Below are positions 19,034 to 59,580 of a DNA stretch of 64,000 nt, piece after piece. The position numbers and the translations under genes are program-made. Source of the DNA: Streptomyces sp. NBC_01353. GTDB taxonomy: Bacteria > Actinomycetota > Actinomycetes > Streptomycetales > Streptomycetaceae. The stretch covers positions 2,852,001-2,916,000 of the forward strand of contig NZ_CP108352.1 in NCBI RefSeq assembly GCF_036237275.1, written 5' to 3'. The notes under the pieces are model-generated. The model was given only the letters and a program-made list of their open reading frames with translations, ran no database searches and had not been told where the DNA came from. Position 1 is the stretch's first letter. The number at the start of each line of letters is the position of its first letter.

Positions 19034-20881
19034 TTGAGCACTCAAGCACCGACGCGCAGAACAGGGTTCAGACACCGGGCCGCCGCCGGTCTGACCGCCC
19101 TGATCCTGCCCCTGGCCGCCATGGTCGGCCTCGCAGCACCCGCCGAGGCCGCCACGGCGGCCACCGCCACGTACACCAAGGTCTCCGACTGGGGCTCCGG
19201 CTTCGAGGGCAAGTGGACGGTGAAGAACACCGGCACCACCACGCTCTCCTCCTGGACCGTCGAGTGGGACTACCCCTCCGGCACCGCCGTCACCTCCGCC
19301 TGGGACGCCACCGTCACCAGCTCCGGCACCCACTGGACCGCCAAGAACGTCGGCTGGAACGGCACCCTCGCCCCCGGCGCCACCGTCTCCTTCGGCTTCA
19401 ACGGCTCCGGCTCCGGCGCCCCCAGCGGCTGCAAGATCAACGGCGCCTCCTGCGACGGAGGCACCCAGCCCGGCGACAACGCGCCCTCCGCCCCCGGCAC
19501 CCCCGTCGCCTCCGACATCACCAACACCTCGGTCAAGCTGACCTGGACCGCGGCCACGGACGACAAGGGCATCAAGAACTACGACGTCAAGCGCGACGGC
19601 ACCACGATCGCCACCGTCACCGGACTCACGTACACCAACTCCGGGCTGACCGCCGGCACCGACTACAGCTACACGGTCGTCGCCCGCGACACCATCGACC
19701 AGACCGGCCCGGCGAGCGGCGCCGCGAGCGTCAGGACCACGGGCGGCGGGACCAACCCCAACCCCGGCGCCACCGTGAAGCTCGGCTACTTCACCAACTG
19801 GGGCGTCTACGGCCGGAACTACCACGTCAAGAACATCGCGACGTCCGGCTCCGCGTCCAAGATCACGCACATCAACTACGCCTTCGGCAACGTCACCGGC
19901 GGTAAGTGCACGATCGGTGACGCCTACGCGGACTACGACAAGGCCTACACCGCCGACCAGTCCGTCGACGGCGTCGCCGACACCTGGGACCAGCCGCTGC
20001 GCGGCAACTTCAACCAGCTGCGCAAGCTGAAGAAGGCGTACCCGAACATCAAGGTGCTGTGGTCCTTCGGCGGCTGGACCTGGTCCGGCGGCTTCGGCCA
20101 GGCCGTGCAGAACCCGACCGCCTTCGCGCAGTCCTGCTACGACCTGGTGGAGGACCCGCGCTGGGCCGACGTCTTCGACGGCATCGACCTGGACTGGGAG
20201 TACCCGAACGCCTGCGGTCTGTCCTGCGACACCAGCGGCCCGGCCTCGTTCAAGAACATGATGCAGGCGATGCGTGCCAAGTTCGGCGCGAACAACCTGG
20301 TCACGGCGGCCGTGACGGCCGACGCCTCCTCCGGCGGCAAGATCGACGCCGCCGACTACGCGGGCGCCGCGCAGTACATGAACTGGTTCAACGTGATGAC
20401 GTACGACTTCTTCGGCGCCTGGGCGGCGCAGGGTCCGACGGCCCCGCACTCCCCGCTCACCTCGTACGCCGGCATCCCGCAGGCAGGCTTCAACTCCGCC
20501 GAGGCGATCGCCAAGTTCAAGGCGAAGGGCGTCCCGGCCAACAAGCTGCTGCTCGGCATCGGCTTCTACGGCCGCGGCTGGACGGGCGTCACCCAGTCCG
20601 CACCGGGCGGCAGCGCGACGGGCCCGGCGGCCGGCACGTACGAGCAGGGCATCGAGGACTACAAGGTCCTGAGGAACTCCTGCCCGGCCAACGGCACGGT
20701 GGCCGGTACGGCGTACGCGCACTGCGGCTCCAACTGGTGGAGCTACGACACCCCGGCCACGGTCACGTCCAAGATGAGCTGGGCGAAGAACCAGGGCCTG
20801 GGCGGCGCGTTCTTCTGGGAGTTCAGCGGTGACACCGGCAACGGCGAGCTGGTCGGAGCCATCAACAGCGGGCTGAACTAG
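19034..20881 (+). CDS. chiC: Secreted chitinase, GH18 with CBM2 and FnIII domains
   Basis: A 615-aa exported enzyme that hydrolyses chitin. TTG 19034 follows GAGGAG. The signal peptide (residues 1 to about 40) has RR and a hydrophobic core, ending near AEAA. A family-2 carbohydrate-binding module (about 42-145) holds the conserved Trp residues. A fibronectin-III domain (about 155-240) follows, then the GH18 barrel from about 252. The DGIDLDWEYP motif places the catalytic Glu at residue 389 with Asp 382, 385 and 387. The domain order matches streptomycete ChiC. The promoter repeats upstream support chitin-regulated expression. Confidence 0.95.
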   Translation: MSTQAPTRRTGFRHRAAAGLTALILPLAAMVGLAAPAEAATAATATYTKVSDWGSGFEGKWTVKNTGTTTLSSWTVEWDYPSGTAVTSAWDATVTSSGTHWTAKNVGWNGTLAPGATVSFGFNGSGSGAPSGCKINGASCDGGTQPGDNAPSAPGTPVASDITNTSVKLTWTAATDDKGIKNYDVKRDGTTIATVTGLTYTNSGLTAGTDYSYTVVARDTIDQTGPASGAASVRTTGGGTNPNPGATVKLGYFTNWGVYGRNYHVKNIATSGSASKITHINYAFGNVTGGKCTIGDAYADYDKAYTADQSVDGVADTWDQPLRGNFNQLRKLKKAYPNIKVLWSFGGWTWSGGFGQAVQNPTAFAQSCYDLVEDPRWADVFDGIDLDWEYPNACGLSCDTSGPASFKNMMQAMRAKFGANNLVTAAVTADASSGGKIDAADYAGAAQYMNWFNVMTYDFFGAWAAQGPTAPHSPLTSYAGIPQAGFNSAEAIAKFKAKGVPANKLLLGIGFYGRGWTGVTQSAPGGSATGPAAGTYEQGIEDYKVLRNSCPANGTVAGTAYAHCGSNWWSYDTPATVTSKMSWAKNQGLGGAFFWEFSGDTGNGELVGAINSGLN

Positions 20882-36331: not shown

Positions 36332-36433
36332 GGTGTCTCCTAGTTTCGGGAGGGCGCCGGGTCGCCGTGCGGATTGCACCTGCGTGAACCGGAGCCGACG
36401 TACCAGTCTGCCAGGACCGGCCGTATCTCCCAA

Positions 36434-47437: not shown

Positions 47438-47509
47438 GCCCCCGTAGCTCAGGGGATAGAGCAACGGCCTCCGGAGCCGTGTGCGCAGGTTCGAATCCTG
47501 CCGGGGGCA
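47438..47509 (+). tRNA. tRNA-Arg (anticodon CCG)
   Basis: The cloverleaf is complete: acceptor stem GCCCCCG with CGGGGGC, D arm GCTC/GAGC, anticodon stem ACGGC/GCCGT with loop CTCCGGA (anticodon CCG at 47471-47473), and T arm GCAGG-TTCGAAT-CCTGC. The discriminator base is A and CCA is not encoded. It reads CGG codons. Its 3' end is the integration site of the adjacent element. Confidence 0.97.
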
Positions 47510-49653: not shown

Positions 49654-51204
49654 TCAGACAGCGGGGTCGCTCAGCTGGGGGTGGATGAGGTAGCGCGGGG
49701 ACGGCGGCCGGCCCCGGCCTCCGGTGCGCAGAACGGGCTGGCAACGGATGAACCCGTGGTCTTCCAGCAGGTTCAGCGCCGGGTCGAGGTCGGCGACGGT
49801 GGGGAACTCCGAGCGGGAGAGCTTCACCATGAGGTCCCGCTTGCTGACCTCGCTCCACTCCTGGGCGCGCAGCAGCTCCAGCACAGCGTGAGCACGGTTG
49901 GCGGTGTGGTCGGCGCCCATGAGGTCGAAGACCGCCAGGGCGTGGCCGGTGAAGTAGTCCGACAGCTTCACCGCCGCGCACATGGTGTCCGCCGTGATGG
50001 GCTCGGTGTGCCCGTCGGTGGGGTGCGCGGCTAGGTGCAGGAGACCGGCGAGGCGGCAGGTTGCGCCGCCCAGCTTGTTCGCCCAGTTCCCAACGTGGGC
50101 GAGGTCTCCGCCGCGCTGCCGCAGGCGGGGTTCCTGCCGCTTCTCGTAGGCCACGAGCACGTCACCGGCCTCGGGCGAGAGCTGGAGTACCGCCGGATCG
50201 GTCCAGTCCGCCAGGGACATGGTCAGGGCGGTGAGCGTCTCCTCGTAGGTGGCGGCCACCTGATCGGGGATCGGCTCGGGCAGGATCTTGCGGTGCCCCA
50301 CGAGGGAGGCGGGCAGCGAGTAGAAGAACCGGGCCAGCAAGCCGCGGTCGCCCGCACCCTTGATGCGACCGATGTCTTCCAGGACGGACGGCTGCACCGT
50401 GAGCCCCATGGTCAGGGCGGGGGATTCGATGAACTCTTCCCGGCCCCGGCGGTCCACCCGCAGCCGGTCACCTGCCTGCCCGCGCAGGAAGACATCCAGG
50501 TTGGGGGTGCCGGAGTAACGCCCGGCGATGATGTCGAAGATGCCACCTTCGGCCGACATGACGGAGAGCCTGCCGCCCTGTTCGGCCAGCAGGGAGGCGA
50601 TGACTTCCGGGGTGGCGTCATCGGCCAGCAGCCGGGGCTTGGCGGGCACCGTGACCGCCTCGGCCGCCTGGGCCAAGCCGATGGCCTCAGCAACGAGCTG
50701 ATCGCGCTTGTCCGCGTCCGCTCGGGCTGCCTTGGTGGCCGCGTTCTCGGCGACCTCCTTGGCGAGCTTGGCGGTAATCTCTGCCTCCACGATCCGCCCG
50801 GCCGACTGGGAGACCAGCAGCTCTTCACAGCGGTAGAGGGGGTTGGCCATCAGGTTGAACACGGCCGACTTGCGGTTGCCCGGCGGAAGCGCGACGACCA
50901 CGAACACGTTCGTGGGCTCACGCCAGCGGCCCCGGACGTGAACCACGGAGCGACCGCCGGCAGCGGTGCCCAGCACGGCGAGCGCGAGGGACCCCGCCAT
51001 GTCCACCGGGGTCTGGGTCTCCTCGGCGACCGCGCGGACGTAGTCGCCCAGCCAGGCCGGGAAGACCTCGGTGGGAAAGGCCGGCAGTTCACGGCGCGCG
51101 GTGAGCGGGATCGGCTCCTCCCACGGCGCGCCAGCCGCTTCGGCCGCGTCCAGGGCCTCGAATCCAGCCCACAGTTCGGAGCTGTCCACAGGCTGTGTGC
51201 TCAT
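49654..51204 (-). CDS. DUF3987-type replication protein
   Basis: A 516-aa protein with a P-loop-like segment ALPPGNRKSAVFNLM (about 100-114) and the conserved SAEGGIFDIIAGRYS block. A helical middle and a winged-helix-like C-terminus (SKRDLMVKLSRSEFPTVADLDPALNLLEDHGFI) follow. DUF3987 proteins accompany Prim-Pol in AICE replication modules and are thought to act as helicase or loader. ATG 51204 overlaps the Prim-Pol stop (ATGA), so the two are coupled. Confidence 0.85.
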   Translation of the reverse strand: MSTQPVDSSELWAGFEALDAAEAAGAPWEEPIPLTARRELPAFPTEVFPAWLGDYVRAVAEETQTPVDMAGSLALAVLGTAAGGRSVVHVRGRWREPTNVFVVVALPPGNRKSAVFNLMANPLYRCEELLVSQSAGRIVEAEITAKLAKEVAENAATKAARADADKRDQLVAEAIGLAQAAEAVTVPAKPRLLADDATPEVIASLLAEQGGRLSVMSAEGGIFDIIAGRYSGTPNLDVFLRGQAGDRLRVDRRGREEFIESPALTMGLTVQPSVLEDIGRIKGAGDRGLLARFFYSLPASLVGHRKILPEPIPDQVAATYEETLTALTMSLADWTDPAVLQLSPEAGDVLVAYEKRQEPRLRQRGGDLAHVGNWANKLGGATCRLAGLLHLAAHPTDGHTEPITADTMCAAVKLSDYFTGHALAVFDLMGADHTANRAHAVLELLRAQEWSEVSKRDLMVKLSRSEFPTVADLDPALNLLEDHGFIRCQPVLRTGGRGRPPSPRYLIHPQLSDPAV

Positions 51205-52127
51205 GCCGCACTCGCCTCCGAAGCGCCGCCCCGGACGAGACCGGAGCGGATCGCGGTGCGGCACTCCCCGGCCGCCAGGCCGATGCACTGCCCGGCGCTC
51301 ATCAGCTCGCTGACGACAGCGGCCTCCGTGAGGTCGCCCGTGCGGATCAGCCGTGCGAGGGCGTAGGCCGCGAAGTACACCGCACGATTACGACTGCCCT
51401 CGCGGGCGGACAGCACCTTTTCCAGCTCCCCCCGCAGCGCGGTGGTGCTGTAGGCGGTGGCGTTACGCATCCTGGCGGACAACTCCGCCAGCGGCATCGG
51501 CGCCGGTGCGGGCTTGGGGGTCAGCAGGTCACTAAGCCACGCAGGGAGGGGGGCCGGGGGCGCGTCGTGAATGATCTCGTACGGCGCTCCGCCCACGACG
51601 CTGCCGGCCGCAACCACGTACCCGCCCCACGCTCGGGTGTCGACCTTCCACCCCAGGGTGCCGCCCGTGCTGCGTAGCGTCTTTCCCTCAGGGGCGGTGA
51701 AGTACAGGTGCTGGCCGCCACGGCGGGTGCGGACCGTGTGTGTCTCGGTCGGCATCCGCTCGCCCGCGCGCTCGCACAGTGCGGCGAACACGTCCAGGCC
51801 ATCGGCCATGCCAACCCACTCGGGCGGCGCGGTGTCGGTGTCGTCCTTGGAGATGTCGAGGTCGACCACCACGAGCTGGGCGGGGCCGGTGGCGATGCCG
51901 ACGTTGTACGCGGCCGCCTGCCAGCACGCCGCAATGTGCCCGGGGTCCAGGGTGGCGCGCTGCTCGGGGGTGCGGTGACCGTCCGCGCATCGGCCGGTGC
52001 GCGGGCAGTCCCGCTCGGGGTGCCCGGCGGGCCGCTTGTCACCGGCGCGGAGCGGGAAGACGGGCCAGCCGCGCTCAGCGGCGGCCAGGGCGGCGCGCAG
52101 CAGCGCCGGGGCAAGGGTTGCTGTCAT
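51201..52127 (-). CDS. Bifunctional primase-polymerase (Prim-Pol)
   Basis: A 308-aa protein with an archaeo-eukaryotic-type Prim-Pol domain. Active-site elements are GWPVFPL, the paired acidic residues in LVVVDLDIS, and RTRRGGQHLYF. It would prime or copy the element during autonomous replication. ATG 52127 follows CAGGAGACC. It follows a conserved hairpin leader (52164-52204). Confidence 0.9.
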   Translation of the reverse strand: MTATLAPALLRAALAAAERGWPVFPLRAGDKRPAGHPERDCPRTGRCADGHRTPEQRATLDPGHIAACWQAAAYNVGIATGPAQLVVVDLDISKDDTDTAPPEWVGMADGLDVFAALCERAGERMPTETHTVRTRRGGQHLYFTAPEGKTLRSTGGTLGWKVDTRAWGGYVVAAGSVVGGAPYEIIHDAPPAPLPAWLSDLLTPKPAPAPMPLAELSARMRNATAYSTTALRGELEKVLSAREGSRNRAVYFAAYALARLIRTGDLTEAAVVSELMSAGQCIGLAAGECRTAIRSGLVRGGASEASAA

Positions 52128-52163
52128 GCTGGGGGTCTCCTGTTTCTGCGAAGGGACGGAGAA

Positions 52164-52204
52164 CCGGGGCGGTCGCGGTCTTTGGCGAGAGGCGACCGCC
52201 CCGG
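52164..52204 (-). ncRNA. Structured leader element, copy 1 (upstream of Prim-Pol)
   Basis: A perfect 13-bp stem with a 15-nt loop containing, in transcript sense, CTCTCGCCAAAGACC. Its base is 37 nt from the Prim-Pol start. A second copy with nearly the same loop and compatible stem changes lies upstream of the 106-aa gene at 58752, and a third of the same size lies before traB. Confidence 0.55.
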
Positions 52205-52210
52205 GCGTAT

Positions 52211-52726
52211 CTACTGGTGCTTGGCCCAGTGGGCGTACTCCTGGCGGACGTAGCCGCGCGGGTTGCCGATGGCCTCGGCGTGCTCAGGCCAGTACGGGCT
52301 GCCCCAGTGGCGGCCGTCCCCGTCGCGGTCGACCTCAAGGAGCTTGCGGGCGGCGTTAAGCGCCAGCGCGGGGGCATCGGTGCGGACGCTCGCGGTCCCG
52401 TCGTCCGGGGCGATGCGGTCCAGCAGCGCGGCCTTACGCAGCCAGAACTCCCTCACGTCCGTGGAGTGGAGGGGCCACAGGGCCTCGCGGGCCCGCTGGG
52501 CGGTCCATCCGATCTCGCTGACGATGCTCGGGGCGAGTAGGTACGCCTCGTCCGGCGTCGGCCACGCCTCGGTGTCCTCGCGGTGCTCGGCCGTGACGTA
52601 CAGGCGGATGCGCTCATCGTCGCGGCGGGGGTACTGGCGTACGGCGCCGGTGGTGAACGTCTCGGACAGCCCGCTCAGGACGCGCTTGGCGTCCGAGGGG
52701 AGGCAGATGACGCGGATCTCGAACAT
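52211..52726 (-). CDS. AICE hypothetical protein
   Basis: A 171-aa soluble protein, predicted mixed alpha/beta at the N-terminus (FEIRVICLPSDAKRVLSGL) and helical at the C-terminus, with an aromatic-rich end (YVRQEYAHWAKHQ). No family is recognised. Five bases separate it from the next upstream gene, so it belongs to the transfer/replication operon. Confidence 0.75.
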   Translation of the reverse strand: MFEIRVICLPSDAKRVLSGLSETFTTGAVRQYPRRDDERIRLYVTAEHREDTEAWPTPDEAYLLAPSIVSEIGWTAQRAREALWPLHSTDVREFWLRKAALLDRIAPDDGTASVRTDAPALALNAARKLLEVDRDGDGRHWGSPYWPEHAEAIGNPRGYVRQEYAHWAKHQ

Positions 52727-52731
52727 GAGGT

Positions 52732-53337
52732 TCAGTGCTCCTTGGTGGTGTCAATGGCGGGCAGTTCGGGCAGCCCGGCCTTGGCGAGCTGGGCGGGGTC
52801 GAAGCCGGGCAGGGCGGCCCGGGTGATGAGGGCGGTGGCGAGCTGTTCGGCGTAGGCCGCGCCAGAGCGGGCGACCTCGATCTGTGCCCCGGCGCGCAGG
52901 GCTTCGACGCGCTCAACGTGGGCGTGCTCCTCGCGCCGCACGGTGGTGTGCCGCCCGTGCGCGAGGCTTTCGCGGCGATCGGTGCGCCAGTAGCGCGCGG
53001 CCAGGCCGTAGGCGACGGCGGTGGCCACCGCCCACAGCAGCAGCGGCAGCGACATGCCGTCGGCGTACCCGGCAACGCCCGCCAACGCCAGCGCGCCGGA
53101 GCTGGCGAACGCGGTCCCGGCAATCACGCTGTCGCCGGAGCGACCGGCCGAGGCGAAAGCGCCGGCGGTCGCGGCCCCGGCGGCCAGAACGACCATCAAC
53201 GTGGCGTTGCCGGTGGAGTGTTCGGCGCCGTTGGCGTTCCAGATCCGGCCCAGGATCAGGACCGTGGACGTGGCCACGGCCGGAGCCGCCTTGGGGGCGG
53301 CCAGGGCCAGCCAGTGACGTGCGGTGATCGGTTCCAT
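52732..53337 (-). CDS. AICE membrane protein
   Basis: A 201-aa protein with about four hydrophobic segments in the first 120 residues (for example STVLILGRIW and LPLLLWAVATAVAYGLAA). A basic and helical cytoplasmic C-terminus (RREEHAHVERVEALRAG) follows. The position between the replication and Spd genes suggests a role in intramycelial spread, but no specific family was recognised. Confidence 0.75.
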   Translation of the reverse strand: MEPITARHWLALAAPKAAPAVATSTVLILGRIWNANGAEHSTGNATLMVVLAAGAATAGAFASAGRSGDSVIAGTAFASSGALALAGVAGYADGMSLPLLLWAVATAVAYGLAARYWRTDRRESLAHGRHTTVRREEHAHVERVEALRAGAQIEVARSGAAYAEQLATALITRAALPGFDPAQLAKAGLPELPAIDTTKEH

Positions 53338-53350
53338 GGCTCGGGCCCTC

Positions 53351-53539
53351 CTACAGGTCGCTGACGGCGCTGATGACGGCGGTGGTCAGTTCGTTGATCG
53401 GCCCGGACGCGCCGGTGGAGGCGAGGAAGAAGCCGAACATGATGGCGACGAACGCGGAGCCGTAGCCGAGGGTCTTGGAGCGCAGGAGGAAGAACAGGAC
53501 GAGTCCGAACAGGGCGACGAGGGAGACGGTGATGGCCAC
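53351..53539 (-). CDS. Small membrane protein (Spd-like)
   Basis: A 62-aa protein of two membrane helices joined by a short SKTLGYGS turn. Small double-helix proteins with this position before the TraB gene are typical plasmid spread (Spd) proteins of streptomycete elements, which help move DNA across septa in the recipient. Confidence 0.75.
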   Translation of the reverse strand: MAITVSLVALFGLVLFFLLRSKTLGYGSAFVAIMFGFFLASTGASGPINELTTAVISAVSDL

Positions 53540-53563
53540 GAGGGGCCTCCTTCACTGGTGGGG

Positions 53564-53815
53564 TTAGCGGGTGCCTTCGCGGTGGATGCGCATGGCGACG
53601 TTGAACAGGTGGCGGCCGAGCCGGATGCGCTTGCGGTCGCCGTGGCAGCGGCGGCAGGTCTTGCCGGGCTTGAGGCGTCCGCGCCGGTCCTTCTTGAGCG
53701 CGTAGCCGAAGCCCTTGCACTTGCGGCAGTTGCCGAACGGGCTGGACGCACACAGCCCGGCGTAACAGAGCGTGAACAGCAAGGTCAGGAGGCTAGCGGC
53801 GGTCATGAGGGTCAC
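53564..53815 (-). CDS. Small membrane protein with DnaJ-like zinc ribbon
   Basis: An 83-aa protein with an N-terminal membrane helix (about 3-22). A Cys-rich stretch NCRKCKGFGY then KTCRRCHGDR has two C-x2-C pairs with the glycine pattern of a DnaJ zinc finger. Such genes commonly lie beside traB in AICEs. The function is unknown; a Spd role is inferred. Confidence 0.75.
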   Translation of the reverse strand: MTLMTAASLLTLLFTLCYAGLCASSPFGNCRKCKGFGYALKKDRRGRLKPGKTCRRCHGDRKRIRLGRHLFNVAMRIHREGTR

Positions 53816-53854
53816 AAGGGGCCTCCAGGGCCGGATTCGGGGCGTGCGAGGGGC

Positions 53855-53946
53855 AGCCCGCTAGGTACTAGCGGGCTGATCAGGTGTTGTTTGGGTCGCT
53901 AGCGGGGGTGCTAGACCTAGCGGGGGTGCCCGCTAGGTCTAGCGGC
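53855..53946. promoter_or_regulatory. Candidate TraB recognition cluster (clt)
   Basis: The 8-bp word CTAGCGGG or its complement occurs five times (53857, 53868, 53899, 53917, 53929), with CTAGCGGC at 53939. The first pair forms a perfect 10-bp inverted repeat (53855-53864 with 53868-53877). The cluster lies 10 bases from the stop of the FtsK-like transfer gene. TraB of pSVH1 is known to bind 8-bp direct repeats placed next to its gene. Confidence 0.65.
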
Positions 53947-53955
53947 GGGGTGCGG

Positions 53956-56145
53956 CTAGCTCGCATCCCGCCTTCCGTCACGCTCCGCAATCGCGGTCGT
54001 GAGCTTGGCGCGCTCGAAGCCGCGCCGGTTGGCGCCCTTGCCGTCCTCGGTCTTGCCCCAGACCTGGCCCGTGGGGACGCCGTAGGGCTTGAGTGCGGAG
54101 GTGAGCTGCTCCGGCTCCCAGCCGCCGTAGACCTCGGGCCGCAGTTCCGCCAGGCGCGCGACGGCGACCTCGTTCCACACCTTCGGCTCCTCCGGGGCGA
54201 CGACCGCCAGCAGGTCTCGCAGCAGGTCGTAGCTCGCTGCCTTGTCGACCTCCGGGGCCTGCCCGGCGGCGTGACCGGTCAGGGTGCCGGCGTCCTCACG
54301 GAGCTTGCGGGCCCGCGACGCGATCGTCTCGGCGACGACCGCGTCCACGTACACCGAGCGGACGATCCGTGCGTCCGAGCCTTCGCCGACGAAGTAGTGG
54401 ATGCCCTTGTCGCCCCAGGCGAACATCGTGGCCCGCACCCCGCGCTTGTAGGAGCCGGTGCCCAGGACCATGTCGTTCTCGATCTGGCCCATGACCTTCA
54501 TGCAGAACCGGGTGGACGCGTTCGCGCTGATCCCGGTCGGCAGGGACTTCGAATCCGGGCGCTGAGTGGCCAGCAGCAGCGTGATCCCGGTTGCGGGACC
54601 ACGCTTGACCAGGTCGGTGCAGATCTCCTCGAACTCCGCCCCGTACTTGGGGTGCTCGAACCACACCTGGCACTCGTCAGCACCGACCACGATCGGGTGC
54701 AGGCCCAGCTTCTTCATGCTGGCCAGCTCGGTGGTGACCTTGGACTCCGGGCAGATGTCGCGGGGCAGGGAGCGGATCACCTTCGCACGGCGCCGCAGCT
54801 CCTCCCGCAGCGCCCGCAGGTCCTGGATCGCGTACTCGATGTCCTCCTCGTCCTCGCCGGCGCGGTGACGGTGGGAGCACTTCTCCCCCACCGGGTCGAG
54901 GTCGCCGGTGCCCTTGAGGTCGTAGGTGTGCAGCTCGGCGCGCGGGTCGAGGGCTGCGATGAGCAGCAGCAGGCGGAGCAGGAACGTCTTGCCCATGCGC
55001 GGGATGGCGCCGACGATGCCCGCGATGTACATCAGCGACAACTCCACCCAGCGTCCGCGCTGGTCGGTGCCGAAGCTGGTGGGCTTGAACAGGTCCACCT
55101 GTCCGGTCTTGGCCAGCGGCCATACCGGCTGCTTGGCCTTGGACATGTCCTGATCCCCGACCCACAGCACCAGGCGGCCGGTGTGCTCGTCCGGGACCGC
55201 CTCGGGCCACACACAGCCCAGCGGCCGGCGCAGGCCGGACGCGAGGCGGTCACGGCGGTCCATCACGTCCGAGACCGTCACGCCGTAGGGCAGGTCCCCC
55301 TCCGCGCGCCAGCCCGGGCCGTCCCGGGTGATCGGGGAGGTGAACACGAACCCGTCCCGGCCCTTGGCCACTGCCTGGTTGATCTGCGAGATGCTGAGCG
55401 CGGCCAGCGCGCGCAGCACGATGTCGCTGGTGAGCTTCTGCGCCTTGGGCAGCTCCACCGCCCGGTTGATGACCGGCGCGTCCGGCGACTCCCCCGCATA
55501 GCCCAGCGCCATGACCACGGCGCCGACCGACACGGTCATGAGCCAGGCCGGGGCCAGCACATACAGCGCGAGGGCCGCGCCCAGGCCGATGAACGAAGCC
55601 AGCAGCACTACGAGGGTCCGCAGACGGACGCGGCCGTCGCGCTGCCTGGAGAGCTTGAGGTAGGTGGCCGCGTCCTCCTTCTGGACCATGGCCAGGCGGA
55701 CCGGCTCGCCCTCCTTGTCGGCCACCCACCGCATCGCTCCGCCCAGGAACTTCGCGGCGCCGCGAGGCGACTGCAGAGCGAGTCGGGCAGCGTAGGCCGG
55801 GGAGCGGAAGGCGTGGTACCCGGCCATGTGGCCGTAGTGCCTGGCCACCCACCCGGCGGCCGTCTTCAGCTCCGCCGTGGACTTCAGCCACTCGGGAACG
55901 ACCTGGCGGCGCTTGGCCCCCGCCAGCCGCCCCAGGTAGCCGGGGCCCTTCCGCTCGGGGCCGTCGACCATGATGCGGGCGGTCGGGTCCGGCTCGGCGT
56001 CGGGAGTCGGCTCCGAGCCAGCCGACTCGCGAGCGGACCGGGCCTTGTCCAGGTCGACCACTTCCGCGCCCGAGTCGGGCGCGGAGTCGGCGGCCATGTC
56101 GGCTTCCAAGCGGTTGAAGAGTTCGTTCTCGTCGTCGTGGTTCAC
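53956..56145 (-). CDS. traB: FtsK/SpoIIIE-type conjugal DNA translocase (TraB/TraSA-like)
   Basis: A 729-aa motor that moves double-stranded DNA between hyphae. Two membrane helices lie at about 175-215. The ATPase has Walker A GAIPRMGKT at 379-387, Walker B IVVGADE at about 485-491 and the LLLATQRP block. The C-terminal 70 residues (WNEVAVARLAEL to NRRGFERAKLTTAI) look like the FtsK-gamma winged helix that reads specific 8-bp sites. A repeat cluster follows its stop. A hairpin (56181-56222) precedes its start by 36 nt. Confidence 0.94.
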   Translation of the reverse strand: MNHDDENELFNRLEADMAADSAPDSGAEVVDLDKARSARESAGSEPTPDAEPDPTARIMVDGPERKGPGYLGRLAGAKRRQVVPEWLKSTAELKTAAGWVARHYGHMAGYHAFRSPAYAARLALQSPRGAAKFLGGAMRWVADKEGEPVRLAMVQKEDAATYLKLSRQRDGRVRLRTLVVLLASFIGLGAALALYVLAPAWLMTVSVGAVVMALGYAGESPDAPVINRAVELPKAQKLTSDIVLRALAALSISQINQAVAKGRDGFVFTSPITRDGPGWRAEGDLPYGVTVSDVMDRRDRLASGLRRPLGCVWPEAVPDEHTGRLVLWVGDQDMSKAKQPVWPLAKTGQVDLFKPTSFGTDQRGRWVELSLMYIAGIVGAIPRMGKTFLLRLLLLIAALDPRAELHTYDLKGTGDLDPVGEKCSHRHRAGEDEEDIEYAIQDLRALREELRRRAKVIRSLPRDICPESKVTTELASMKKLGLHPIVVGADECQVWFEHPKYGAEFEEICTDLVKRGPATGITLLLATQRPDSKSLPTGISANASTRFCMKVMGQIENDMVLGTGSYKRGVRATMFAWGDKGIHYFVGEGSDARIVRSVYVDAVVAETIASRARKLREDAGTLTGHAAGQAPEVDKAASYDLLRDLLAVVAPEEPKVWNEVAVARLAELRPEVYGGWEPEQLTSALKPYGVPTGQVWGKTEDGKGANRRGFERAKLTTAIAERDGRRDAS

Positions 56146-56180
56146 TGCTTACTTCCTTCCGGAAACGGGAGGGGTTGGAA

Positions 56181-56222
56181 GGGGTCCGGACGGCGCTTTC
56201 GTCGGCCGACCGTCCGGGCCCC
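56181..56222 (-). ncRNA. Hairpin leader, copy 3-like (upstream of traB)
   Basis: A 13-bp stem with one wobble pair and a 16-nt loop holding, in transcript sense, GCCGACGAAAGCG. The size and distance to the start codon (36 nt) match the other two leader hairpins, though the loop sequence is less similar. It could instead end transcription of the preceding RRQRL gene. Confidence 0.45.
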
Positions 56223-56241
56223 GCTGGGCGAAGCTGCCGGT

Positions 56242-56634
56242 TCAGGCAGCGAGTTGGGGAGTGTCCGCGCAGGTGACGCACGTGCCGAGTGAGGTCGGGA
56301 TGCGGTATCCGGCATCCCGCCGGCACTCGGGGCAGATGCGCTGGGCAGCGTTCGCCTTGGCCAGCGCCGCCCACTTCGCGGGAGTCATCGGCCGCACGGG
56401 CTTCGCGCGGTCGAGGCGGTACAGGTAGGCCACCCGGATCGGGCTGGTTCCCTTGCGCCAGTAGCGGCGCGAGTGCCACAGCACCTGAGCGGCCACCTCC
56501 TGGCCGCCCGGGCGCAAGCCGCGGGCGCGGAGCTGACGGCGGGTGGCCAGACCCTCAGGAGCCATCCGCCACGGGTAGGTCGGGAGGCCGTACCGCTCGC
56601 CGGTCGGGTCATACAGGCGTCGGCGGGCGGCCAC
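56242..56634 (-). CDS. RRQRL-type zinc-binding protein
   Basis: A 130-aa basic protein. LYDPTGERYGLPTYPW and LATRRQLRARGLRPGGQ near the start are the hallmark of a protein group common in streptomycete AICEs. The C-terminal C-x2-C pairs (CPEC and CVTC) form a probable zinc ribbon. GTG 56634 shares a base with the TAG of the upstream gene. The role is unknown; DNA binding is plausible. Confidence 0.85.
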   Translation of the reverse strand: MAARRRLYDPTGERYGLPTYPWRMAPEGLATRRQLRARGLRPGGQEVAAQVLWHSRRYWRKGTSPIRVAYLYRLDRAKPVRPMTPAKWAALAKANAAQRICPECRRDAGYRIPTSLGTCVTCADTPQLAA

Positions 56635-57785
56635 TACGCGGCCGTCGCCTCAGCGCCCGTGTCCCCGTCGCGCTCGACCTTGAGCGTGTCGCGCAGCATC
56701 CGGGCGTTGGCCGACGACGTACGCACCGCCTTGCGAATCCCATCGGCGGTCAGGTCCGCCACGGCCCAGTCAGCCGTGACCGTCCGGGCCTCCGCCAGCA
56801 GCTCTTCAGGGGTGCGAGTCGGGCGGGGTGTGCGAGCCGACTCAGGAACCCGACCGGTCGCCCGGCGCGAACCCGACTGCGCGGCAGCCACGGCCTTGAC
56901 CGAAGCCGACTCCGGCACAGCCGAGTCGGCGTCAGGCGGCTCGGTGACCGCCACCGGGTCGAGCGACTCGACAGCCGCCTCAGCCGGGGCGTCCGGCTCC
57001 GGCACGGCCGACTCGATGGCCGGGACCCCGGCCACGCCCTCCACCGCTTCCCGAGGCGACTCACGCAGGTCAGACCCCAACCGATTTACGGCGCGCTCTA
57101 CCGATTCCTCCCGGTTCGCGAGGGAGACGGGGGTGTGCGGGAACGGGACAGAGAACATGGCGGCCAGGGCCGCGTCGGCACCGTTGGTGACGCGCTCGCG
57201 CTGGATGTCCAGTAGCCGACCGCCCAGCGCGGCATCCCCCATGCCGACCTTCCGCGCGAGCTTCCACGAGGTCCGCTCGGAGGCTTTCTTGACGCGCTTG
57301 TCGGGGTGGTTCGCGGCGCGGGCCTGATGGTAGGCCAGCGCCTTCACGACGGCTGCGGCCTTGGCTTCGGCCTCAGCGTCGCGGCCGTCCTGGTGGACGA
57401 CGATGCGGCGGGCCAGGAACGCCATGCCCTCCGCCGACACGCACATGCCCATCGGGGTCACGGCGTAGATCACGGTCCGGCCTGGGTCGTCGGCGGCCGT
57501 CGCGGCCATGACCGAGGCTGCCGCCGGCAGGGCCCACAGGCCGAGCCGGATGATCCGGGGGGACGACTGCCCGAGCATCGTCAGCCCCAGCAGTACGAGC
57601 GCCAGGACTGCGGTCGCGCCCTCGCCGGCAGCCACCGCTCCCAGTGCGGTGCCGGAACCGTAGGCGCCGCTGATGTTGCTGAACGTTCCCACCCCACCGC
57701 CGATCCCGGTAGCGAGCATGGGCACGAACGCGGCCGTCAGGACGACCTTCTGCACCTTGGTCAGTGGCCTGCGCTCCGTCGTCAC
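56634..57785 (-). CDS. SpdB-like membrane protein
   Basis: A 383-aa protein with three or four membrane helices in the first 130 residues. A Lys/Arg-rich helical segment is followed by a long acidic Pro/Glu/Ala-rich disordered region. A short helix-turn-helix-like C-terminus (WAVADLTADGIRKAVRTSSA) closes it. This layout matches streptomycete transfer/spread membrane proteins. GTG 57785 overlaps the GGDEF gene stop (GTGA). Confidence 0.8.
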   Translation of the reverse strand: MTTERRPLTKVQKVVLTAAFVPMLATGIGGGVGTFSNISGAYGSGTALGAVAAGEGATAVLALVLLGLTMLGQSSPRIIRLGLWALPAAASVMAATAADDPGRTVIYAVTPMGMCVSAEGMAFLARRIVVHQDGRDAEAEAKAAAVVKALAYHQARAANHPDKRVKKASERTSWKLARKVGMGDAALGGRLLDIQRERVTNGADAALAAMFSVPFPHTPVSLANREESVERAVNRLGSDLRESPREAVEGVAGVPAIESAVPEPDAPAEAAVESLDPVAVTEPPDADSAVPESASVKAVAAAQSGSRRATGRVPESARTPRPTRTPEELLAEARTVTADWAVADLTADGIRKAVRTSSANARMLRDTLKVERDGDTGAEATAA

Positions 57786-58435
57786 GCCACCTCCCCGCTG
57801 GTGCCCCGGCGCCCGGCGCGGCGGCCGTTGACCGTGTCCATCTGCGGGGCGACCCTCAGACGGTGGGGGGCGATGCGCCAGCCCCCGCCGCTCTGCTTGG
57901 CCTTGTACATCTGCTCATCCGCCCGCCGCAGCAGGGTGGACAGGTCGCCGTGGCTCGCGCGGTAGTACCAGTCCGCGCCGACCGAGGCGTGAACGTCGAT
58001 GTGGTGGCCCTCGAACTCCACCGGCTGAGCCAGCCGCTCGGTCAGGTCGCTCAGGTCCTGGCGCAGGTTGTCGAGCCCGTACGCCGGGATGATCGCGGTG
58101 AACTCGTCACCGCCCAGTCGCCCCGCGACCCCGGAGTTGTCTGCGGCCCACTGAGCGAGGCGCTGGCCGGTGGCGCGAAGGACCGCGTCACCGGCCGCGT
58201 GGCCGAACGTGTCGTTGATCTGCTTGAACCAGTTGAGATCCAGAACGAGAACAGCGCGCTGGCACTTCTGGGACAGGCTCTTGCGGGCCCGCTCCTCGAA
58301 CGCGTCACGGGCCCACAGGCCCGTCAGCGGGTCGCGGCGCGAGTCCTCAATCCGGCGACGCATCCAGAGACTGTGGACGGACCAGCCGGACACCAGCGGC
58401 AGCGCGGCGGAGAGGGCCGCCATGGTGTGACTCAT
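57782..58435 (-). CDS. Diguanylate cyclase (GGDEF domain)
   Basis: A 217-aa protein that would make cyclic di-GMP. One short N-terminal membrane helix (about 5-22) is followed by a GGDEF domain (about 35-190). DPLTGL, LDLNWFKQINDTFGHAAGD and the intact catalytic RLGGDEF are present, so it should be active. No RxxD inhibitory site precedes GGDEF at the usual spacing. ATG 58435 overlaps the upstream gene stop (ATGA). In streptomycetes cyclic di-GMP controls the developmental repressor BldD, so the element could influence sporulation of its host. Confidence 0.88.
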   Translation of the reverse strand: MSHTMAALSAALPLVSGWSVHSLWMRRRIEDSRRDPLTGLWARDAFEERARKSLSQKCQRAVLVLDLNWFKQINDTFGHAAGDAVLRATGQRLAQWAADNSGVAGRLGGDEFTAIIPAYGLDNLRQDLSDLTERLAQPVEFEGHHIDVHASVGADWYYRASHGDLSTLLRRADEQMYKAKQSGGGWRIAPHRLRVAPQMDTVNGRRAGRRGTSGEVA

Positions 58436-58752
58436 GCCGCGCCCTCCCCGGCCTGGGCGGAACGGCCGGCGGTGCGGGCGGCGCGCAGGAACGGGACCGT
58501 GCGGGTCAGCGCGTCGGCGTACAGCGCGTCCCACGCGGCGACCTCGTCGCCACCCTCACCCTGGGCCGCCAGCTCCGCGATGACCTCGCGGGCCACGTCA
58601 AGGCGGGCCGCCCGCTCCTGGGGCGTCTCGGGGGCCAGCGGCCCACGGAACAGGTCGCGGTCGATCCCCGCGGGCAGCTCGTCGAAGCCGAGCGCCAGTT
58701 CCTCGAACTCCACAGCGCTGACGATCTGTTGCGTGCCGATGTACGTACGCAT
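58432..58752 (-). CDS. AICE hypothetical protein, first gene of the backbone operon
   Basis: A 106-aa helical acidic protein. ATG 58752 follows AAGGAGAGC. No family is recognised. It heads a chain of four genes linked by stop/start overlaps (58752 down to 56242) that includes the GGDEF protein. A structured leader lies 29 nt upstream. Confidence 0.75.
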   Translation of the reverse strand: MRTYIGTQQIVSAVEFEELALGFDELPAGIDRDLFRGPLAPETPQERAARLDVAREVIAELAAQGEGGDEVAAWDALYADALTRTVPFLRAARTAGRSAQAGEGAA

Positions 58753-58780
58753 GTCGATAGCTCTCCTTGTGCGAAGGGAG

Positions 58781-58821
58781 CCGGGTCGGTCGCGGTCTTT
58801 TGGCGAGAGGCAACCGCCCGG
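58781..58821 (-). ncRNA. Structured leader element, copy 2
   Basis: The loop in transcript sense is CTCTCGCCAAAAGACC, one base longer than copy 1. The stem of about 12 bp is kept: one C-G pair becomes a U-G wobble and there is one bulged A. Conserved sequence continues past the stem toward the ribosome-binding site (CTCCCTTCGCA in both). A conserved cis-acting RNA is the simplest reading. Confidence 0.55.
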
Positions 58822-59100
58822 CAGGTACGTGCTGAGCGAGCCGTGCGCCCCGGAATCCGGGGTCACGGCGACCGCTCGTCGAAGACGAGTGGTCATTGCT
58901 GCTGACGCCTCCGCACGGGAGCCATCAGCAGCCAAAATCACTCGTTCTAAGTCCTCTGTTCAGTTCTCAAGGAACAGCTACTCCCAGCCCGTCGGGCGTG
59001 CGACAACGTCGCCTTCCCAGGTCTTCCGGCTGGTGCGGGGTACTGCTGGCCGCTCGGTTCTGCCGACTAAGGCGAGCACCGAGCGGCTCTGCCTCAGAGT

Positions 59101-59119
59101 GCACTGTGAGGCACAGTGC
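59101..59119. promoter_or_regulatory. Candidate operator of the GntR regulator
   Basis: Perfect 8-bp inverted repeat GCACTGTG/CACAGTGC with a 3-bp centre, plus a related GCACTATGAGGCA at 59178-59190, 28 bases before the regulator start codon. This is suited to autoregulation and control of the divergent transfer operon. Confidence 0.6.
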
Positions 59120-59217
59120 GTCAAGCCTCTTCCCGGAACAAGGCCGGGGAGTCGCTGGTTCTCTCAATGCCGCTTGGGCACTATGAGGCAGAGACCGAGA
59201 CAAGACTTGGGGTGCAG

Positions 59218-59580
59218 ATGGTCGAGTGGACCGGCAAGCCCGCCTATCAGCAGGTTGCCGAGCAACTCCGGCGGAGGATCGCGGCCGGCGAGTTCAACAC
59301 GGCAGGCAAGCTGCCGTCCTTGGCGGAGATCCAAGGGGCGTACGGCGTCACTGTCACCGTGGCGCGCGCCGCTATCCGCCAGCTCAACAGCGACGGGCTC
59401 GTGGTGACCCACCAGGGGAAGGGCGCGTTCCTCACGTCCGGCTCGACCGAGGCCGCGAAGCTCGCGAGCCCCGAGGGCGCCCTCGCCGATCTGCAAGAAC
59501 AGGTCGACAGCCTCAAAGCCGAGGTGGGAGACCTTCGCGCCCGACTGGACGCCCTGGAGGCGGGTCGCGGCTCGGAGTGA
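59218..59580 (+). CDS. GntR-family repressor (KorSA-like)
   Basis: A 120-aa regulator with an N-terminal winged helix (about 5-75; QVAEQLRRRIAAGEF, LPSLAEIQGAYGVTVTVARAA). Instead of a ligand domain it has a short C-terminal coiled coil (DLQEQVDSLKAEVGDLRARLDAL). pSAM2 uses a GntR-type repressor, KorSA, to silence transfer and replication genes; the gene position here suggests the same role. ATG 59218 follows GGGGTGC. Confidence 0.9.
   Translation: MVEWTGKPAYQQVAEQLRRRIAAGEFNTAGKLPSLAEIQGAYGVTVTVARAAIRQLNSDGLVVTHQGKGAFLTSGSTEAAKLASPEGALADLQEQVDSLKAEVGDLRARLDALEAGRGSE

Follow-up and report, generated by a model that had tools for sequence, protein, structure and literature searches.

A candidate cis-regulatory hairpin family at the head of replication and transfer operons in Streptomyces integrative elements

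Why would one mobile element carry the same small hairpin ahead of more than one of its operons? The question is raised by a 64,000-nucleotide (nt) stretch of the Streptomyces sp. NBC_01353 genome (contig NZ_CP108352.1, positions 2,852,001 to 2,916,000), which we call the window and number from its first letter, and which holds an actinomycete integrative and conjugative element (AICE). An original prediction, made from these letters, had proposed that hairpins ahead of the Prim-Pol, traB and GGDEF genes of the element exert a shared post-transcriptional control. Here we conducted a computational analysis of these hairpins and of their relatives in other genomes. The answer that we put forward tentatively, with a confidence just short of even, is that the hairpin acts in cis, as an RNA, on the AICE replication and transfer operons that it heads, and that it would be read by a factor and would serve post-transcriptional control.

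The hairpins of the window and their fold

On the minus strand the sequence at 52164-52204 folds as CCGGGGCGGTCGC-CTCTCGCCAAAGACC-GCGACCGCCCCGG, and that at 58781-58821 forms a hairpin with the loop CTCTCGCCAAAAGACC, whose stem contains one G-U pair and one unpaired A; we refer to the two as the replication and the transfer hairpin, after the operons that they precede. The two hairpins with matching loops, which had been predicted, are confirmed by these folds, by z-scores of -4.60 (49 nt) and -4.04 (51 nt) for the replication and transfer hairpins, respectively, and by a shuffle control, in which the 23-24 nt segment common to both hairpins, present twice in the window, appeared in 0 of 100 shuffles. 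In 90-nt folds that include the start-side flanks, the z-scores are -4.35 and -2.32. The loop pattern (CTCTCGCCAAAN{0,2}GACC) is found nowhere in the 8.57 Mb genome beyond these two hairpins, and they are also the sole matches of the family model R1, built from 43 members (alignment A1), in a genome search at E up to 10, with scores of about 74.8-74.9 bits for the replication hairpin and 53.3 bits for the transfer hairpin. The distances to the start codons had been given as 29-37 nt; counted on the sequence, the gaps are 36 nt (Prim-Pol), 28 nt (the ATG at 58752) and 35 nt (traB), and the genes named at the head of these groups stand as well: PF09250 identifies the Prim-Pol, traB encodes a TraB/FtsK-like translocase, and in the third group the GGDEF protein (PF00990) is encoded by the second gene of its operon. 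The replication hairpin begins 6 nt past the stop codon of the upstream frame.

The hairpin ahead of traB (56181-56222) is a different case. That it exists, with the size and position of the other two and containing GCC...AAAG, was correctly predicted (z of -2.52 alone and -0.93 with flanks). Its loop differs, however, and its R1 scores, 12.2 and 12.1 bits on the two strands, are background when set against the 74.8 and 53.3 bits of the other hairpins. As a copy of the CGCCAA element it was hence rejected on its loop, and it was reinstated as a member of a separate and parallel traB-leader series that includes the related loci L256, L262, L172, L164 and L268. In the first three of these the traB-leader loops end in ACCAAAGC, and one stem pair of the series, C.A in the window, is replaced by C-G in L256 and by T-A in L262 and L172.

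Across 100 distinct sites the family shares one architecture, in which a small internal loop separates the outer stem from a 3-bp inner helix that is capped by the CGCCAA loop. The apical loop reads CGCCAA in 95 sites, CGCCAC in 4 and CACCAC in 1, counts to which the selection by pattern or model contributes. Differing stems carry this one loop (GGGCGGCCCC..GGGCCGCCC, CCCGGGGCGGCT..GCCGCCCCGGG and CCCCCGTACCGGC..GCCGGTGCGGGGG), and the inner helix UCU/AGA also occurs as UCA/UGA, UUC/GAA and UGU/ACA, one of its pairs appearing as UA, UG, CG or AU. The covariation set comprised 104 R1 matches, giving 92 distinct rows (alignment A3). In this alignment, which is fitted to the model and so favours pairing, 93.0% of the cells are paired, compared with 39-61% when the partners are slid. 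Two-sided changes occur at 14 of the 16 pairs and fill 153 cells, whereas shuffling gives 41.5 on average, so that the stems do keep pairing despite base changes, as had been claimed. A failure to find covarying members elsewhere had been named as a possible refutation; members were found, with strong covariation across relatives. The conserved fold with compensatory changes is one expected of a structured cis-regulatory leader. Moreover, when the two basal pairs are excluded, G-U exceeds A-C by 29 to 11, an excess that fits a sense-strand RNA rather than DNA.

The Rfam families do not cover this fold. Compared with Rfam 15, the window yielded only a tRNA and the L31-Actinobacteria leader (36353-36398) above the gathering threshold, and 19 relatives gave no family at the hairpin, in agreement with the earlier statement that the structure was not recognised as a known family. 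Scans of 51900-58950 and 58600-59400 at low threshold found no Rfam match covering either CGCCAA hairpin; a partial msiK match (14.6 bits, 58818-58844) extends into the base of the transfer-hairpin stem. We file the hairpin as a new cis-regulatory RNA family.

Distribution and position in relatives

The hairpin keeps its place relative to genes. A start codon that has a Shine-Dalgarno (SD)-like sequence and opens a frame of 60 or more codons follows on the sense side in 96 of the 100 distinct sites, versus 27 of 100 on the other side, and the gap between hairpin and start measures 36-38 nt in 53 of these 96 sites and 24-47 nt in 95 of them. At 47 of the 100 sites the stem begins 6 nt past the stop of an upstream frame of at least 80 codons. 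In the 96 sites the hairpin thus occupies the sense strand ahead of genes, as a leader does, and we infer that it is transcribed with them. The genes behind it are varied, including Prim-Pol, C5-cytosine methylases ahead of Prim-Pol (L161, L262), a DnaB-N/DUF3987 protein (L169), the RepSA operon of pSAM2-like elements (L174, L177) and the gene that opens the transfer operon. What unites these sites is that they head replication or transfer operons, irrespective of which replication protein is encoded. The methylase genes sit between hairpin and Prim-Pol, identified by the Pfam C5 methylase family in L161 and L262 and by N-terminal resemblance only in L251, L185 and others; L262 and L251 have a hairpin copy at both methylase and Prim-Pol, and the methylase slot looks like a cargo site. 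In L165 (9919-9965, minus strand) the same loop tops a strongly divergent stem that is not immediately followed by a reading frame of 60 codons, and this copy could be a free-standing RNA.

Within the genus, the loop pattern occurs in 29 of 295 genomes and its reversed form, used as a control, in 4 of 295. Ten genomes have at least two sites, nine of them holding a pair in the same orientation 5-10 kb apart and the tenth having its two sites on different contigs. The loop lies within a stem in 29 of the 31 loci from the genome itself and the genus search, the exceptions being L004 and L028. The model R1 has matches in 52 of 200 genomes of the taxonomic family, spread over 8 of 17 genera. At the level of the class, 19 of 394 genomes match; 18 of these belong to the same genus, and the remaining match, a weak one, is outside the family (G429). 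Both searches used stricter filters, at which weak matches are lost. As an independent control, a 17-mer of the loop and stem edge was scanned across a collection of species genomes and gave 111 matches in 108 loci, 57 with a stem of at least 8, 53 without one and one too near a contig end. Among 80 of these loci (L271-L350), the 40 that bear the stem all come from Streptomyces or Streptantibioticus, genera not represented among the other 40. The family is restricted nearly only to Streptomycetaceae. Many elements carry two to four copies of the hairpin. In a viral collection at least 120 stretches contain the loop pattern, and among the listed stretches folding below -20 kcal/mol L133 alone shows the hairpin, its sequence being identical to the L165 hairpin. 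Complete circular relatives in PLSDB carry it as well: NZ_CP108827.1 at 37 nt ahead of Prim-Pol and 45 nt ahead of FtsK, NZ_CP108973.1 at 38 nt ahead of Prim-Pol, and the relaxase plasmid CP108402.1 at 39 nt ahead of OG216_47915. In NZ_CP108827.1 the stems ahead of int and DUF4097, of 10 and 9.4 respectively, carry other loops, and CP108402.1 (L391) has a second R1 match of 34.0 bits at 19767-19817 on the plus strand, some 450 nt ahead of the annotated relaxase start.

A wider series of leaders was examined in 70 loci, namely the window and 69 fetched stretches of 7-20 kb, most of them chosen through the hairpin and one (L179) without an element. Leaders were filtered for a stem score of at least 9.4, a 13-21 nt loop with YCA(A/C/G) or GCC(G/A) and an end 18-70 nt before the start. 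Per locus bearing the gene in question, such leaders precede TraB in 34/68, Prim-Pol in 33/61 and the first transfer gene in 18/36, although a few (for example, L249 and L269) look spurious. Lower counts were obtained at int (9/66), GntR (9/62), GGDEF (1/20) and g83 (1/29), and none at RRQRL (0/56), SpdB-like (0/47), xis (0/28), g171 (0/20), DUF3987 (0/14) and g201 (0/10). We also assembled a set of 20 loci, picked by the RRQRL gene from genomes without an R1 match in the family search, and 16 of the 20 have a leader (20-55 nt before a start, with CCA, CAC or GCCG in the loop), distributed over Prim-Pol (7/18), TraB (11/19) and the first transfer gene (6/14), versus 0/103 other genes. Of the 24 leaders, six contain CGCCAA. 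The L244 and L248 leaders have the inverse-complement loops, and that of L249 is doubtful.

Loops vary between elements (CTGCCAGG in L235, CCGGCCAAGG in L240). Within an element, the replication and transfer loops resemble each other, with a mean edit distance of 1.74 versus 3.43 in permuted pairs (p 2e-4, 19 elements); traB loops show no match within elements (8.20 vs 7.92, p 0.95, 25 elements, some doubtful). Ahead of the first transfer genes of L231 (13920), L232 (13897), L233 (13844), L245 (6349) and L249 (14034), near-perfect palindromes with an 8-nt non-conserved loop replace the GCCA hairpin.

A factor-read leader and its alternatives

What would such a hairpin do? Because its structure fits a sense-strand RNA, its loop is conserved, its place is just upstream of the initiation footprint and it heads several operons, we infer that it is a site for a trans-acting RNA-binding factor. 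This factor, encoded by the host or by the element, would recognise the apical loop with its GCCA core and, bound just outside the initiation footprint of the ribosome, would change the translation of the mRNA, the processing of its 5' end or its stability, the replication and transfer genes thereby responding together. Since traB has a hairpin variant of its own, it could be set separately.

Several results weigh against this interpretation. No hairpin was detected at 34/68 TraB genes, 28/61 Prim-Pol genes and 18/36 first transfer genes, and in NZ_CP108973.1 the DUF6284 genes and TraB are without such a stem, Prim-Pol alone having one. The matching of loops within elements includes four of 19 rows that were added by hand from R1 matches missed by the stem filter, all four of which match, and in L250 and L266 the replication and transfer loops do not match; the matching may besides stem from common descent or from conversion between copies, and not from recognition. 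The transfer leaders of L244, L248 and L266 carry the inverse-complement loop UUGGCCGG, which is unexpected for a reader of a sense-RNA loop. Finally, the hairpin does not overlap the SD, and sequestration of the SD by the spacer is not above controls, leaving no visible switching partner. The RRQRL protein was considered as the binder: when positions were compared by eye, many of the hairpins had it within about 11 kb. It was rejected, since it does not occur in the stretch fetched for a number of loci that bear the hairpin (for example, L163, L164, L166, L169, L260, L266 and L270). Pairing of the loop with an antisense or small RNA was likewise rejected, there being no complement of at least 9 nt in the window between 47001 and 61000 except the opposite strands of the hairpins themselves. 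A link to cyclic di-GMP, for which tests had been suggested, is not supported: no cyclic di-GMP riboswitch model matched, and a GGDEF gene was found in just 20 of the 70 loci.

A serious rival arises from the transfer leader, which contains a copy of the antitermination box of the host ribosomal RNA (rRNA) leaders. The pattern TTGAGAACTSAACAG, at up to 1 mismatch, has six sites in the genome, one in the transfer leader and one roughly 185 nt upstream of each of the five 16S genes, and the reversed pattern is absent from the genome; in other genomes the box is often paired, about 1.98 kb on, with the variant TTGAGAACTGCACAG, which is taken for the 16S-23S spacer copy. By its sequence, 58956-58970 is a putative rrn-type antitermination site. 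Allowing up to 2 mismatches, the box is found in 24 of the 70 loci (the window, L157, L167, L232, L235, L236, L244 and L256 among them), on the TraB strand in 24 of 24, and also in NZ_CP108827.1. The segment bound by NusA we take to be AGAACUCAAUAG. In the parts of the sources available to us, M. tuberculosis NusA binds boxC-like RNA (PMC6614801) and boxes are described in the M. tuberculosis rRNA leader and spacer (PMC5676007). The copied box suggests, as far as sequence can tell, that a conjugative element borrows the rRNA elongation machinery of its host. The hairpins could then be conditional attenuators that stop or pause unmodified polymerase before traB and the replication genes and let polymerase loaded at the box pass, an explanation that we consider rather unlikely in spite of the box. 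It would suit the stems that lie 6 nt past an upstream stop in 47 of the 100 sites and the spacers, which in 92 leaders (last 14 nt omitted) are C-rich and G-poor (43% C, 16% G), a composition associated with Rho loading; it does not suit the lack of a U-tract (a T-run of at least 4 within 12 nt past the stem in 0/100 sites, of at least 3 in 3/100), the fact that a terminator scan did not call the hairpins, or the 46 of 70 loci that are without the box at up to 2 mismatches, some of which are truncated. A terminator, moreover, can do without loop conservation and without constant spacing to the following start. That the hairpins act only as terminators, which had been named as the outcome that would overturn the prediction, is disfavoured by the same absence of T-runs of at least 4, by the conserved loop and by the 24-47 nt gap, which leaves scant room for a new promoter. 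Precedent for attenuation exists in the conAn system of Gram-positive conjugation operons (pLS20 type; PMC8955417), where, in the portion of that account open to us, an RNA element heads a long conjugation operon whose internal hairpins are passed only by modified polymerase. That system, however, consists of a protein and an RNA part and has intrinsic internal terminators (PMC8955417, same portion), whereas the AICE has a host rRNA box and hairpins without U-tracts. We regard as unlikely a fuller scheme, an AICE RNA regulon in which polymerase at the transfer promoter would take up the rRNA antitermination complex of the host through the copied rrn box, and element-matched GCCA-loop hairpins, read by one dedicated factor, would decide post-transcriptionally whether transfer, traB or replication is expressed. 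In the rrn leader a small hairpin follows just past the box (loop GCCAGAUUA, 6 bp, z -1.35), a weak hint that the hairpin-reading factor could belong to the same host machinery. Between the box of the window and the transfer hairpin lies a further long hairpin (58882-58948, minus strand; AACGAGTG...CACTCGT with GCTGCTGA/TCAGCAGC).

The early RNase III sites of phage T7 are a precedent for another explanation, in which a ribonuclease (RNase III or J/E type) cuts at or beside the hairpin, separating messages and leaving a 5' end about 37 nt before the start. The intercistronic location, directly past stop codons in about half of the sites, the fixed distance to the next start and the internal loop, often asymmetric, in a GC-rich stem all agree with it, but the upper helix has just 3 bp, the leader in which the transfer copy of the window stands is non-coding and offers no upstream message to cut off, and RNase III has no need of a strictly conserved apical loop; we find it quite improbable. 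Even harder to credit is a site acting in DNA, whether a palindrome or an extruded hairpin to which a protein of the element binds (a regulator, a transfer factor or a replication factor) or a dispersed repeat of the repetitive extragenic palindrome type, in view of the sense start in 96 of 100 sites, the G-U excess, the narrow spacing to the start and the pairing kept while the stem sequence varies, even though an element contains several copies and three transfer leaders have the loop inverted. We give scarcely any credence to a translation switch, working either by sequestration of the SD or by a pseudoknot of the loop segment CUCGCC with a conserved GGCGAG at codons 8-10 of MTQPTDIRR-type genes. 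GGCGAG is indeed the exact complement of that segment, and wherever codon 9 encodes Arg, the codon is CGA (35 of 35 leaders, with 30 distinct first-27-nt sequences) and the next base is mostly G (30 of 35), while CGA makes up 8.5% of 11,160 Arg codons in comparison frames; because the 35 rows are related, the figure is not a probability. However, GGCGAG is present in just 26 of 96 leaders, and loop changes (CUCACGCC, UUCCGCC) are not followed by the coding segment, so the pseudoknot, being neither general nor accompanied by covariation, was rejected. A second hairpin sequestering the SD was convincing by eye and was rejected too, as it is not above shuffled or swapped spacers: over 95 distinct spacers the mean unpaired probability of the SD is 0.283, versus 0.291 shuffled and 0.274 swapped.

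The element and its place among known systems

The window contains the parts by which an AICE is recognised, namely an integrase, an Xis, a replication protein and an FtsK-type Tra protein. The integrase scores 24.7 bits with Phage_integrase, under the Pfam cut-off of 27.1, and a tRNA lies beside int at 47438; the other parts are an HTH_17/AlpA protein (Xis), Prim-Pol with DUF3987, and the FtsK-like protein (Table 1). Downstream of traB, the stretch 53836-53960 ahead of a gene for an 83-aa protein is dense in CTAG-centred inverted repeats, and a strong inverted repeat lies near the start of that gene in 29 of the 29 loci that have it (for example, L180:1604 and L218:244); this region is possibly a transfer or replication locus. 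The conserved MTQPTDIRR start that comes after the hairpin is fused to unrelated genes (many Prim-Pol, methylase) and forms a short frame of its own in L154 (6146) and L192 (1501), which suggested a leader peptide or an insertion boundary.

Table 1. Features of the AICE in the window (coordinates of the window)
Feature	Coordinates	Strand	Remarks
DUF3987 protein	49654..51204	-	Follows Prim-Pol; PF13148, E 2.8e-104
Prim-Pol replication gene	51201..52127	-	First behind the hairpin; PF09250, E 4.2e-44
Spacer and SD of replication operon	52128..52163	-	Between hairpin and Prim-Pol ATG
Replication-operon leader hairpin	52164..52204	-	13-bp outer stem, 1x2 internal loop, 3-bp inner helix UCU/AGA, hexaloop CGCCAA
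TraB/FtsK-like DNA translocase	53956..56145	-	phrog_1358, E 7.1e-24; NCBIfam FtsK/TraB matches weak, below cut-off
traB-leader hairpin	56181..56222	-	Position and size as the other two hairpins, loop differs
RRQRL motif zinc-binding protein	56242..56634	-	NF041638, E 9.7e-45; common but not universal in these elements
GGDEF protein, second transfer-operon gene	57782..58438	-	PF00990 (on 57782-58534), TIGR00254
First transfer-operon gene (MRTYIG...)	58432..58752	-	No family match; place like DUF6284-annotated genes in circular relatives L390, L392
Transfer-operon leader hairpin	58781..58821	-	Loop as in the replication leader plus one A
rRNA-leader antitermination box TTGAGAACTGAACAG in transfer leader	58956..58970	-	Matches host rRNA-leader box

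Among known systems, the operator of phage T4 gp43 is a leader hairpin bound by the protein that it controls, and both it and the L31-Actinobacteria leader resemble the AICE hairpin in being short structured RNAs near the ribosome-binding site of a regulated gene; these two control a single gene, whereas the AICE hairpin is common to several operons of one element. The gntR-DTE RNA (RF02989) is a structured RNA of the same intergenic region, upstream of the transfer leader in four of 19 loci (L157, L167, L169 and L209), but it is a separate 119-nt motif that lies upstream of the CGCCAA hairpin without including it, and it was not found in the window. The same gene classes and elements have been described as the Prim-Pol/RepPP, RepAM and RepSA modules of AICEs, with SCO4617-SCO4618 of SLP1 as the named Prim-Pol model, and in the accessible text of that work the words hairpin and untranslated are absent and no leader RNA appears (PMC3218068). 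Among titles and openings of abstracts in the open-access literature, outside which most subscription journals lie, we found no account of the hairpin, nor of the rrn box in AICEs.

AICEs are mobile elements of antibiotic-producing actinomycetes, and their control has been described, in the text accessible to us, in terms of DNA-binding regulators, namely KorSA-type GntR repressors and the activator Pra (PMC8584621). An RNA element common to replication and transfer genes, and to elements of both the Prim-Pol and the RepSA type, would add a common post-transcriptional layer, and the hairpin family would give a means of tracing the factor by which it is read.

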